From: Riptortus pedestris
Lineage: Eukaryota > Arthropoda > Insecta > Hemiptera > Alydidae
Assembly (NCBI GenBank): GCA_019009955.1
Contig: CM032229.1
Span: 541,001-605,000, forward strand
Direction of reading: 5' to 3'
DNA: 64,000 nt
Position 1 is the first letter of the stretch. Every line of letters starts with the position of its first letter. The notes beneath the pieces are model-generated. The model saw only the letters and a list, made by a program, of their open reading frames with translations. It did not search any database and was not told where the DNA came from. A program made the position numbers and the translations under genes. Of this stretch, positions 44,992 to 50,322 are shown in pieces.

Positions 44992-47900
44992 ATGAAGGTA
45001 AGCGTTACGCGAATAGTATCGCGGTAAGTTCAAACGATCTGTTCACCTTTTCATGGTTCAACAGAAATTTGAAGTACACTCATGTAATACTGATTGAATA
45101 ATAACTGCTTTTCTTTGAAGCCATTAAGATAATAAGACAATTAGCAGATTTGCTTTTAGTCATAACATAGCTGTTCTGTTCTTTATGAGACACACGCTGT
45201 GCCGACACGAATAACATATAGTACACATAAATTACAGTGCCCTCATTCTGTTCCACGAAATATCTCAAGATTTAATTTTCATTTGAGCTTCTCGAACATA
45301 TAAATTGAGTGTGGTTTATTTTTGCAGAAGGATCATCTGTTAACTGGAGTGCTGTTGCTGGCGAGTCAGGTCATAATCAGCAAAGGCAGTAGCAGCGAAG
45401 ACATCAGCTTTACAGCTGGCGGCAAGAAATATTCGCTTGCTGAGACTATTGAAAACGTGCTTGGGGAATCGCAGCCCATAGAGATTGGAAAGGAATCGTA
45501 TGCCAAAGCAATCGTCGACAAGTTGAAGAAAAACGACAACATTGATAAAGACAAATTTAAGGGTCTTGTGGACAAAATATTCCAAAGTGACAAACTGAAT
45601 GACGAGAAGAAAGCTGTAGTGTTTGTTACACTCTTAAAACTCAGAGCAAATAAAAAAGAAATCATTGAATTAATTAAAAGAGTATTTACTCCTCTGAAGC
45701 CACTGAACCGCAAGATAAGGACATTAAGATATACTTATGTAGCAATCAAAAATAATCCGCAATTAACGGAAATATTTTACAGTAATGTATTCAAATATTT
45801 CAAGACTAGAAGGGAAAAGGCACACTTGACAGCGTTGACGGTGAGATCAAAAAGCGTCCCCGCAAAGGGGATAAAACTGTTTTTAAATAGCACGATCACG
45901 TTCGCACGTACACTTTCGGAAGCTAGTAACAACTTGGCAAATGCCTACGCCTATTCAACCAATACAAAGGTAAAGGAAGAAGTCATAAGATGGGCTACAG
46001 TTGTTTATAAGTACACGCAAAGAAAACGAACGAACAGCACTGAAAGTAACAAGAAAAAGAGGAACTGGAAAGAAGATATTAAACAAGAACTTAAAAAAAC
46101 TATAGCAGGCAAGGAGACCGAGAAAGACGACGCCGATGATAAAATTGGCGAAGAAGAAGAGTCCATACGGAAAAAAGTAATAGATTGGCTAAAAGAAAGA
46201 AGAGCAAGAATTAGATCGCAAGCAAGTTCAAGAAGTGCATCTAAAGCAGGAAAACAATCAGATACCGGAAATAAGGAAGGTTCTGCTCCAGAAGGAGAAA
46301 CTGATCATAGTGGAGTAAAACAATCAGGACTTACTACAAAAATCACCAAGGGAAATGACTCAAAAGAAATTTCCGGTGCTAAGCCCGACAGAGAATCCAG
46401 CGAACATTCAAAACCGGGGAGAGAAAAGGATACTGGTAGTGGTTCAGGGACTGGCTCTGGCAGTGGATCGGGAACAAGCACAGGAGGTGGTTCGGGAGGG
46501 AGTTCAGAAACAGGCAGTAGTCCAGTAACTATAGCTGATGTGGGTACTGGAGGTGGGTCAGGAAGTGGATATGGTTTAGGCTTCGGAAGTGGATACGGAT
46601 CGGGCTCCGGGACAGGCTCAGGAACAGGATCAGGCAGTGGATATGGATCGGGTTCCGGCACAGACTCAGGAACGGGATCAGGCAGTGGGTATGGATCGGG
46701 TTCCGGCACAGGCTCAGGAACGGGATCAGGCAGTGGGTATGGATCGGGTTCCGGCACAGGCTCAGGAACGGGATCAGGCAGTGGGTATGGATCGGGTTCC
46801 GGCACAGGCTCAGGAACGGGATCAGGCAGTGGGTATGGATCGGGTTCCGGGACAGGCTCAGGAACAGGATCAGGAAGTGGATATGGATCGGGTTTCGGGT
46901 CCGGCTCAGGAACAGGCAGTGGATATGGATCGGGGTCCGGCACAGGCTCAGGAACAGGATCAGGCAGTGGGTATGGATCGGGGTCCGGCACAGGCTCAGG
47001 AACGGGATCAGGCAGTGGGTATGGATCGGGTTTCGGGACAGGCTCAGGAACAGGATCAGGCAGTGGGTATGGATCGGGTTCCGACACAGGCTCAGGAATA
47101 GGATCAGGAAGTGGATATGGATCGGGTTTCGGGTCCGGCTCAGGAACAGGTAGTGGATATGGATCGGGTTCCGTGACAGGTACAGGAATAGGATCAGGTA
47201 GTGGATATGGATCAGGTTCCGGGACAGGAACAGGATCAGGTAGTGGATATGGATCGGGGTCCGGGACAGGCACAGGAACAGGTTCAGGTAGTGGACCAGG
47301 AGGGGGTTCTGGATCAAGCACAAGTCCTGTACCTATAGCTGAGGTGGGTACGGGTTCCGGGTCAGGAAGTGGATATGGTTCAGGTTCCGGCACAGGCTCA
47401 GGAACGGGATCAGGCAGTGGGTATGGATCGGGATTCGGGACAGGCTCAGGAACAGGTTCAGGTAGTGGATATGGATCGGGTTCTGGTTTTGGCTCAGGTA
47501 GTGGATCAGGATCGGGTCCTGTCTCAGGCTTAGGAACAGATTCAACGCCGGGCACTAGTCTTGTACCTATTACTGATGTAGTTACGGAGTCCGGATCAGG
47601 AGGTGGATATGGTTCAGGTGGAGGAAGTGGCTATGGATCGGGATTCGGGACAGGCTCAGGAACAGGATCGGGTAGTGGATACGGCTCGGGATTCGGGACC
47701 GGCTCCGGTAGTGGATCAGGAAGTGGTTTTGGGTCAGGATTGGGTCCTGACTCAGGTTTAGGAACAGGTTCAACACCGGGCACTAGTAATTTACCTGTTA
47801 TTGATGCAGGTACGGGGTCCGGTTCGGGAAGTGGATATGGTTCAGGCTCAGGAAGTGGGTACGGATCGGGCTCCGGGACAGGCTCAGGAAGTGGTTTTGG

Positions 47901-50322
47901 ATCTGGTTCTGGATTTGGTTCAGGTAGTGGACCAGGCACTAGACCTGTACCTATAGCTGATGTGGGTACGGGGTCCGGGTCAGGAAGTGGATATGGTTCA
48001 GGCTCAGGAAGTGGATATGGATCGGGCTTTGGGACAGGCTCAGGAACAAGATCGGGTAGTGGATACGGCTCGGGATTCGGGACCGGCTCCGGTAGTGGAT
48101 CAGGAAGTGGTTTTGGGTCAGGATTGGGTCCTAACTCAGGTTTAGGAACAGGTTCAACACCGGGCACTAGTATTTTACCTGTTATTGATGTAGGTACGGG
48201 GTCCGGTTCGGGAAATGGATATGGTTCAGGATCAGGAAGTGGGTACGGATCGGGCTCCGGGACAGGCTCAGGTAGTGGTTTTGGATCTGGTTCTGGATTT
48301 GGTTCAGGTAGTAGACCAGGATGGGGTTCTGGATCAGGCACTAGCCCTGTACCTATAGCTGATGTGGGTACGGGGTCCGGGTCAGGAAGTGGATATGGTT
48401 CAGGCTCAGGAAGTGGATATGGATCGGGCTCTGGGACAGGCTCAGGAACAGGATCAGGTAGTGGTTATGGATCCGGTTCAGGAAGTGGGTATGGATCGGG
48501 CTTCGGGACAGGCTCAGGAACAGGATCAGGTAGTGGATATGGATCGGGCTCTGGTAGTGGAGCAGGATGGGGTTCTGGCTCCGGTTCAGGATCAGGCGCT
48601 AGTCCGGTACCTATAGCTGATGTTGGTACGGGGTCGGGGTCAGTTGGGGGATATGGTTCTGGCTCGGGAAGTGGACATAGAACGGGCTCCGGGACAGGTA
48701 CAGGGACAGGATTAGGTAGTGGATATGGATCAGGTTCCGGGACAGGGACAGGAACGGGATCAGATAGTGGACATGGGTCGGGTTCCGGGACAGGAACAGG
48801 AACAGGTTCAGGTAGTGGATATGGTTCAGGTGCGGGAAGTGGATATGGATCGGGCTTTGGGACAGGCTCTGGAACAGGAACGGGTAGTGGATACGGCTCG
48901 GGCTCCGGGACCGGCTCCGGTAGTGGATCAGGAAGTGGTTTTGGGTCAGGATTGGGTCCTTACTCAGGTTTAGAAACAGGTTCAACACCGGGCACTAGTA
49001 GTTTACCTGTTATTGATGTAGGTACAGGGTCCGGTTCGGGAAGTGGATACGGATCGGGAAGTGGACAGGGATCAGGAACAGGTTCAGGTAGTGGATATGG
49101 ATCGGGCTCCGGGACAGGCACAGGAACAGGTTCAGGTAGTGGATATGGATCGGGTTCCGGGACAGGAACAGGATCCGGTAGTGGATATGGATCGGGCTCC
49201 GGGACAGGCACAGGAACAGGTTCAGGTAGTGGATATGGATCGGGCTCCGGGACAGGCACAGGAACAGGTTCAGGTAGTGGATATGGATCGGGTTCCGGGA
49301 CAGATTCTGCCTCTGGAACTGGATTTGGTTCGGGATCCGGGACAGGAAGTAGGGCAGGAAATAGCGATGGAACAGGTTCGGGTTGGGGATCAGGAAGCGG
49401 CGAAGGAAAAGGTTCAGCTTGGGGATCGGGTAGTGGCGAAGGAAGTGGATCGGATAGTGGCAAAGGAAGTGGTGCGGATAGTGGTGGAGGAAGGGGATAT
49501 GGTAGTGGTGATAAAAGGGGATCGGGTAGTGGGGATGGAAGTGGATCGGATAGTGGCGAAGGAAGTGGTTCTGGATGGGGATTGGGTAGTGGCGAAGGAA
49601 GGGGTTCTGGATGGGGATCGGGTAGTGGTGAAGGAAGGGGATCGGGTAGTGGTGAAGGAAGGGGATCGGGTAGTGGCCAAGGATGGGGATCGGGTATTGG
49701 CGAAGGAAGGGGGTCGGGTAGTGGCGAAGGAAGGGGTTCAGGGTGGGGATCTGGAAGTGGGGAAGGTTTGGGGAGAGGTACTGGCAAAGGCCAAGGATCA
49801 GGTAGTGGTGACAGTATAGGCAAAAGTGGGCTTGGTGGTGGAACTATACGGGGACCGGATGATGATGAAGGCATTGGCCCTGATTGGGAATCGAAAAGAA
49901 ATCTCGGAGGCTTAGGTTGGGGATTAGGAAGAGGCCACGGTCACGGATCAAGATGGCGCTCTCGACTTAGGATTTCACCCGACTGGGATATAGGACGTGA
50001 TTTTCTTTTGAATTCAGGAAAAAACTCAAGAAGAAAGCCAAAAAGAAATCGGGATTCAAATAGTGGGTTAGGCGGTAAGGACGTGAATCGCCGGAGAAAT
50101 GATAGAGGCTCTGATGATGAAGATGGAAGTGCGGATGACGAGGAAGGAGATGACGACAGATGGAGGAATTCAGATGATGGTAGTGACGATGACGAGGAAA
50201 AAGGAGGAGGTGATGACAGATGGAGGAATTCTCAAGATGAGGAATCAGATGATGATTGGACACGGCATGGTCCTGGACATGGTCTCGGCTCCAGGGGGTT
50301 AACAAGGCATAGGTGGGGTTGA
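44992..50322 (+). CDS. Secreted cysteine-free Gly-Ser-repeat structural protein (silk/glue-like), two exons
   Basis: Exon 1 is 44992-44997 (ATG AAG); the intron is 44998-45327 (GTAAGC...TTTTTGCAG, 330 bp, phase 0); exon 2 is 45328-50322; about 1666 residues. This start is chosen because the giant open frame has no usable ATG, begins after a perfect acceptor, and joining gives [20 protein letters not shown], a classic signal peptide. Residues 23 to about 240: a Lys/Arg-rich, probably helical, non-repetitive domain. About 240-370: charged linker. About 370-1335: Gly-Ser/Gly-Thr dipeptides with Tyr in GSGYGSG every 16 or so residues; the 48-bp DNA unit encodes [16 protein letters not shown]. This is punctuated by nine [14 protein letters not shown] spacers. 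About 1335-1505: [17 protein letters not shown], with Trp, Glu and Arg. About 1507-1666: Arg-rich then Asp/Glu-rich tail with two DDRWRNS motifs. No Cys anywhere. I recognise no named family. Alternatives are an egg-coat, salivary glue or proteoglycan core. Confidence 0.85.
44998..45327 (+). other. Intron 1 of the silk-like gene
   Basis: The donor AAG|GTAAGC matches the consensus. The acceptor GTGGTTTATTTTTGCAG has a pyrimidine-rich tract. The intron is AT-rich, has stops in all frames, and interrupts between codons 2 and 3. Confidence 0.75.
46430..49320 (+). repeat. Tyr-type Gly-Ser/Thr coding repeat with 48-bp units and spacers
   Basis: In-frame tandem array inside exon 2. A run of 48-bp units around 46630-46860 is almost identical, others are shuffled. 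The spacer encoding (S/R)[10 protein letters not shown] or variants ([19 protein letters not shown]) recurs near 46520, 47325, 47560, 47790, 47945, 48175, 48345, 48605 and 49000, giving a higher-order repeat of about 150-400 bp after the first 800-bp block. Confidence 0.92.
49320..49830 (+). repeat. Trp/Glu/Arg-type Gly-Ser coding repeat
   Basis: In-frame repeat built on GGTAGTGGCGAAGGAAGTGG-like units encoding GSGEGRGSG and GSGWGSG. Tyr nearly disappears and Trp takes its place, with one Glu and one Arg or Lys per unit. Codon choice also shifts, with more AGT and GAA. Confidence 0.9.

Follow-up and report, generated by a model that had tools for sequence, protein, structure and literature searches.

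A candidate silk, egg-coat or glue protein without cysteine, with an unbroken Gly-X repeat and an N-terminal domain shared by a paralog family

The stretch of DNA analysed here, referred to as the window, comprises 64,000 nucleotides of contig C2 (CM032229.1; C2:541001-605000). On its forward strand, at window positions 44992-50322, lies a gene, G586, consisting of two exons (44992-44997 and 45328-50322) and encoding 1,666 residues with one methionine and no cysteine. The sequence-based gene model confirms the coordinates proposed in an initial annotation of the window. The features that the annotation had listed, a signal peptide, a helical N-terminal domain, a Gly-Ser/Gly-Thr repeat of more than 1100 residues and a lack of cysteine, are all present, with the repeat extending over 1,124 residues. 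In window coordinates, G586 and its parts are as follows.

44992..44997 (+), putative exon 1, coding part ATGAAG (Met-Lys), followed by the donor GTAAGC
44998..45327 (+), intron of 330 bases, phase 0, GT-AG, reading GTAAGC...TTTTTGCAG; CAG/AAG opens exon 2 in five of six family genes
45328..50322 (+), exon 2, 1,664 codons and the stop codon
45328..45387 (+), remainder of the signal peptide, residues 3-22; cleavage after residue 22 is predicted by the -3/-1 rule
45388..46041 (+), N-domain, residues 23-240, predicted helical and homologous to four paralogs, from sequence searches and low-confidence secondary-structure models
45496..46020 (+), five tandem 35-residue segments, residues 59-233, proposed helical hairpins, from lag-35 autocorrelation and the helix spacing in a model
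46042..46434 (+), charged linker, residues 241-371
46435..49806 (+), Gly-X repeat, residues 372-1495, with a 16-residue unit and linkers of two types
49807..50319 (+), tail, residues 1496-1666, rich in Arg and Lys, then in Asp and Glu with a repeated DDRWRNS
50518..50523 (+), AATAAA polyadenylation signal, 196 bases beyond the stop codon

The long frame contains no start codon (ATG), which makes a spliced 5' exon necessary. Using a strict donor pattern, we found four phase-0 candidates within 5.3 kb upstream, the nearest being the one that encodes Met-Lys. A looser pattern adds four extra candidates, all within a TG repeat. We chose ATGAAG as the probable start. The whole protein is 33.3% Gly and 20.9% Ser, its mature form has a mass of 151.8 kDa, and the predicted signal peptide suggests secretion. 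The initial annotation had described a basic front and an acidic back. The front is indeed basic, with an isoelectric point of 9.8 over the N part (residues 23-371). The tail, however, is first net basic (+7 over residues 1496-1590), and its last ~77 residues alone are acidic (-14 over residues 1590-1666).

Repeats of such composition are open in several frames, raising the possibility that the long frame is a by-product of a stop-poor repeat in a gene that is non-expressed or decaying. Yet the non-repetitive 370 codons of the N part are open in this frame alone: it has no stop, while the two alternative frames have 26 and 31. Among 2,000 first-order Markov simulations, no open frame was longer than 182 codons. 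To the repeat we applied the ratio of nonsynonymous to synonymous differences per site (pN/pS). Over 14 consecutive, unselected 16-codon blocks it is 0.40 in frame; read out of frame, these blocks give 1.62 and 0.98. A value of 0.17 for 22 units was dropped, since those units had been selected by a pattern fixing 7 of the 16 residues and the value was biased by it; at the nine pattern-free codons per unit the same 22 units give 0.38. Across both counts the out-of-frame values range from 0.98 to 2.52. Differences among units fall on third positions 714 times and on first and second positions together 282 times, a count flattered by the same choice of units by peptide pattern, which fixes 7 of 16 residues. 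Type A linkers likewise show more silent than replacement change (pS 0.25, pN 0.08). Silent change thus prevails in the coding frame alone, and G586 is constrained at the protein level. Given this constraint and the conservation of its paralogs, described below, a decaying gene is scarcely credible.

By composition the 1,124-residue repeat is 44.6% Gly, 26.5% Ser, 9.3% Thr and 4.2% Tyr. Its 16-residue unit occurs in nine exact copies, with Tyr recurring every 16 residues, and it is interrupted by linkers of two types, one of 11 residues and the other LPVIDVGTG, eight of which were found by pattern and one more, degenerate, by sequence. All 18 blocks of at least six Gly-X dipeptides share one phase, the linkers notwithstanding. 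As the lengths of the two types of linker are two residues apart, the phase is preserved even where they intervene. Gly lies on the common phase at 493 of 501 positions, the remaining eight being Gly in the X place, and 76 of the 77 Tyr, Phe, Trp and His residues occupy X positions. In a Gly-X block that forms a beta-strand, all side chains point to one face, as in silk fibroin. We also considered whether a Gly-X phase is a habit of the whole paralog family and rejected the idea, as the Gly-rich tail parts tested in two other cluster or family genes, taken as a control, are without it (69:57 in G649 and 162:149 in G43M).

The N-domain (residues 23-240) has a periodicity of its own. In an autocorrelation over 70 lags, lag 35 scores highest (z score 4.56), a value reached in 1 of 5,000 residue shuffles; against shuffles of seven-residue blocks z is 4.33, reached in 6 of 5,000. 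With this period, five segments can be marked off between residues 59 and 233. Two structure models are of low confidence (mean predicted local distance difference test scores of 56 and 60.5), and in the second of them helices follow one another at steps of 17-18 residues. Summed over the five N-domains known in the genome, the periodicity score also peaks at 35. Taken singly, G586 shows the period clearly (2 of 1,500 shuffles), as does G634 (29 of 1,500; z 3.69); it is not distinct in G621, G667 and G43M (248, 528 and 648 of 1,500 shuffles). With moderate confidence, we regard the N-domain as a short run of tandem helical hairpins.

The initial annotation had called this N-terminal domain unique, which it is not. 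A search of the genome (1.08 Gb, 138 contigs) with the N part of G586 returned four further sites, with expectation values (E) from 6e-9 to 2e-4, three of them clustered 35-81 kb downstream and one at 43.2 Mb. The family therefore has at least five members, this number being a lower bound. The members other than G586, together with one cluster gene that lacks the N-domain, are listed here.

C2:621,489 (+), G621, N-domain paralog, from the N-part genome search
C2:634,462 (+), G634, N-domain paralog, from the N-part genome search
C2:667,068 (+), G667, N-domain paralog, from the N-part genome search
C2:43,223,155 (-), G43M, N-domain paralog, frame 43217959-43224261, from the N-part genome search
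C2:649098-650597 (+), G649, cluster gene without the N-domain, with a similar signal peptide and a Gly-Ser-Arg-rich tail

The four paralogs share the N-domain of G586. Searching from the N-domain of G634 retrieved, besides itself, G621 (1e-22) and G586 (0.004), and a profile of the five members run over 244 kb around both loci recovered the same five and nothing further under E 0.09. When the five N-domains were compared with one another, all 20 directed pairs were detected, at E 1.6e-25 to 2.6e-4 in a database of five. G649 and G634 have similar signal peptides, at 57% along a length of 23 residues, with E 1e-4 for the 244 kb. The product of G649 is 41% Gly and 22% Ser with no Cys, and the five-member profile over 244 kb did not find an N-domain in it. 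Tail and N-domain thus seem to be exchangeable modules. Exon 2 opens with CAG/AAG, with a signal peptide, in G586, G621, G634, G649 and G43M; in G667 this opening was looked for and not found. Possible first exons, two to four codons long, exist for G586, G634 and G649, and a search for a first exon of G621, G667 and G43M gave no convincing candidate.

What follows the N-domain differs greatly among the paralogs. G43M encodes 2,096 residues from the start of exon 2 (in a 2,101-residue frame), with 27% Gly, 13% Ser and no Cys; charged and Gly-rich blocks alternate in it at length, and it ends in repeats of the GIG(K/R) type (GIGKALGG-type) with His. The tail of G634 combines Gly with poly-Asp and has no Cys, while that of G667 is Gly-rich with an Asp run and has four Cys. 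G621 is nearly tail-less and has two Cys. Consisting almost of the N-domain only, G621 suggests that the domain may function apart from any fibre. This would fit a reading of G586 as a low-complexity protein secreted as a mucus or lubricant, with no ordered fibre formed and with an N-domain that possibly binds a ligand or a partner. Small polar residues, which make up most of the repeat, would also suit such a role. A disordered lubricant would, however, need neither the strict dipeptide phase nor the placing of aromatics on one face, and we find this explanation improbable.

No named family was recognised in these proteins. In Pfam, the N part of G586 matched no family at E up to 1, the tail gave a single sub-threshold chance match, and the four paralogs gave sub-threshold matches only, the best of them, at 18.5 bits, lying below the cut-off of 26. 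Searched by sequence against the PDB, the N part had a best E of 0.27 and residues 23-240 alone had no match up to E 10; a profile of the five paralogs had parvalbumin as its best match, at E 0.29. A search of 5.8 billion proteins yielded 784 and 3,564 candidates with shared words, not one of which had an E of 1 or lower, although it needs shared 5-residue words and distant relatives may therefore be missed. Scans of viral and prokaryote contigs returned 26 and 205 pattern stretches and no relative. The statement of the initial annotation that no family could be named thus holds for Pfam, the PDB and the large-database searches, but the N-domain does belong to a paralog group. Nor was there, within the libraries searched, a match to a known non-structural family, which the initial annotation had named as an outcome that would speak against a structural protein. 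Specifically for silk, the fibroin N-domain 3UA0 showed no sequence match to the N-domain of G586, and no fibroin chain was among the PDB matches up to E 10. Descent of the N-domain from a fibroin light chain was considered and set aside. For the N part, neither Pfam (E up to 1) nor the PDB matches included a spidroin N- or C-terminal domain; both domains are, we presume, contained in these libraries. By the tests made, G586 appears to be a member of neither the moth nor the spider silk families. In the published literature searched, we recognised no paper describing the family.

The closest resemblance in architecture is to the heavy-chain fibroin of moths. In the gene description of PMC4522600, the Antheraea assama heavy chain has an exon 1 of 69 bases, an intron of 131 and an exon 2 holding 99.5% of the protein; G586 has the same plan of a tiny (here putative) exon 1, a short intron and a giant exon 2. 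The Bombyx mori heavy chain, as outlined in PMC11217467, has 12 repetitive blocks and 11 linkers, with an N-domain proposed to drive pH-dependent assembly. Like these chains, G586 has a predicted signal peptide, a non-repetitive N-domain and Gly-X blocks with Tyr split by short linkers. The differences are that X is Ser or Thr in G586 and Ala in moths, and that moth chains carry C-terminal Cys, of which G586 has none in 1,666 residues. We think that G586 works like a fibroin.

In composition G586 comes nearest to webspinner (Embioptera) silk. PMC3280245 gives webspinner fibroin as 44% Gly and 31% Ser, in beta-sheet, and its table lists ~67 kDa and a role for cysteine cross-links marked 'Yes'; for one species the composition reported in PMC6170577 is low in Ala, about 2%. 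With 44.6% Gly, 26.5% Ser and low Ala, the G586 repeat would fit a true webspinner fibroin whose C-terminus has diverged. The initial annotation had set webspinner fibroins apart by their cysteines, in agreement with that table, and at 152 kDa, with 9% Thr and no Cys, G586 differs from a ~67 kDa, Cys cross-linked chain. Membership of the webspinner family is unlikely, and we give it little credence. Other silks and glues share certain traits. Tanaidacean silk proteins, likened to G586 by their description in PMC8715525, are secreted, repetitive and large (633-1,909 residues), and three of six have a conserved N-terminus with differing repeats, as in the G586 family, but their motifs are (GA)n, GAGAGS, GPX and Ser-rich. 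Barnacle Gly/Ser-rich cement proteins, again likened by description, have Gly/Ser/Thr low-complexity blocks between charged regions; the best-described one, in the account of PMC5099703, is Ala-rich and has 448 residues (43 kDa) with three ~110-residue repeats, and that account reports no long Gly-X phase. AilSP1, from the raspy cricket, a non-holometabolous insect, is likewise a large repetitive fibroin rich in Gly and Ser, but has, according to PMC3280245, Ala-rich repeats of 37-38 residues and a Cys in its C-terminal region.

Gly-rich secreted repeats serve many coats, and G586 could instead be a structural protein of eggshell, egg coat or cuticle, layered by follicle cells, accessory gland or epidermis and not spun or applied as silk or glue. 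Clustered paralogs with varied Gly-rich tails would also suit a layered coat, and the mixed charge of the tail might give other coat proteins a place to bind. On the other hand, crystallite-forming fibres are the better fit for a fibroin-like plan of two exons and for a Gly-X phase without a break, and no chitin-binding or chorion domain was found in G586 by Pfam. We hold the coat or cuticle explanation to be a lesser possibility.

Taken together, our results suggest, with a probability of about 0.6, that G586 encodes a secreted ~152 kDa beta-sheet-forming material protein, of a silk, egg-coat or glue, and is the founder of an undescribed arthropod family. This accords with the initial annotation, which had proposed a silk, egg glue or coat protein, and the family is best read as one of fibroin-like or glue-like secreted proteins whose likeness to webspinner silk and to the heavy-chain fibroin of moths arose by convergence. 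Several observations weigh against it. The tails of the paralogs are very unlike (acidic in G634, short in G621), so silk need not be what the family makes; G621 and G667 have Cys, and little or no Gly-Ser repeat; and low-complexity tails evolve easily. The structure models of the N-domain are of low confidence, and the 35-residue period is distinct in just two of the five members. Type B linkers show no excess of silent change (pS 0.050, pN 0.048). Slippage in 6-base steps, which also favours even lengths, could partly explain the Gly-X phase, so that its maintenance by selection is likely, not proved.

If G586 is such a material protein, its signal peptide would direct it to the lumen of a gland, where the N-domain, being soluble, basic and built of helical hairpins, would hold the chain in solution together with the charged tail. 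A change of ions, pH or shear could then let N-domain and tail associate chains end to end. The Gly-Ser/Gly-Thr blocks, in which Ser, Thr and Tyr would share one face and Gly the opposite one, would pack into beta-crystallites joined by the hydrophobic linkers that contain Pro-Val, and the regularly spaced Tyr would offer sites for oxidative cross-links, if there are any, in place of disulphides. More tentatively, and at somewhat short of an even chance, G586 may represent a silk or glue system that evolved separately and does without Cys, in which an N-domain of alpha-hairpin repeats drives the assembly of Gly-X chains of 562 dipeptides without phase slip, and in which tandem duplication placed that domain before unlike tails (crystalline Gly-Ser, Gly-Ile-Gly-Lys/His and poly-Asp) as parts of one composite material. 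We know of no silk with an N-domain of alpha-hairpin repeats. Silks arose many times, and it is usually their small ends, not their repeats, that are shared. If a new end domain combined a clear repeat structure with paralogs of unlike tail, one could ask which part controls storage and assembly, and the lack of Cys combined with a perfect Gly-X phase offers a simple test case for disulphide-free beta-fibre formation and a lead for materials design. Should expression place G586 in a gland, a gene would be named for a material so far without one.

Elsewhere in the window, a small secreted gene of about 72 residues is found at 31773-31979 (-), with a proposed first exon at 34568 that would join MSKL to LVMLLAVMVLSATVCRADSDSEE... 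and a TATAAA-like box upstream of it. Its product is His-rich with HGDHQ repeats and is possibly metal-binding; an AATAAA lies past the stop. An 88-base satellite at 24971-29217 has 48 copies that are 98% alike, and telomere repeats, sought at six contig ends for a clue to the animal order, were not found there. Frames of retroelements without long terminal repeats (non-LTR), with reverse transcriptase (Pfam RVT_1), occupy 53876-56146 (+), 9105-10946 (-) and 56993-58096 (-). A further reverse transcriptase fragment (RVT_1) lies at 36575-37513 (+), which from its motifs we take to be probably part of a Ty3/gypsy-type element. The element at 53876-56146 is Jockey-like and has an endonuclease domain; its nearest named relatives are from the stink bug Halyomorpha halys (40%) and then the spider Caerostris extrusa (34%), which makes an arthropod source likely, and four unnamed sequences match it more closely, at 44-50%.

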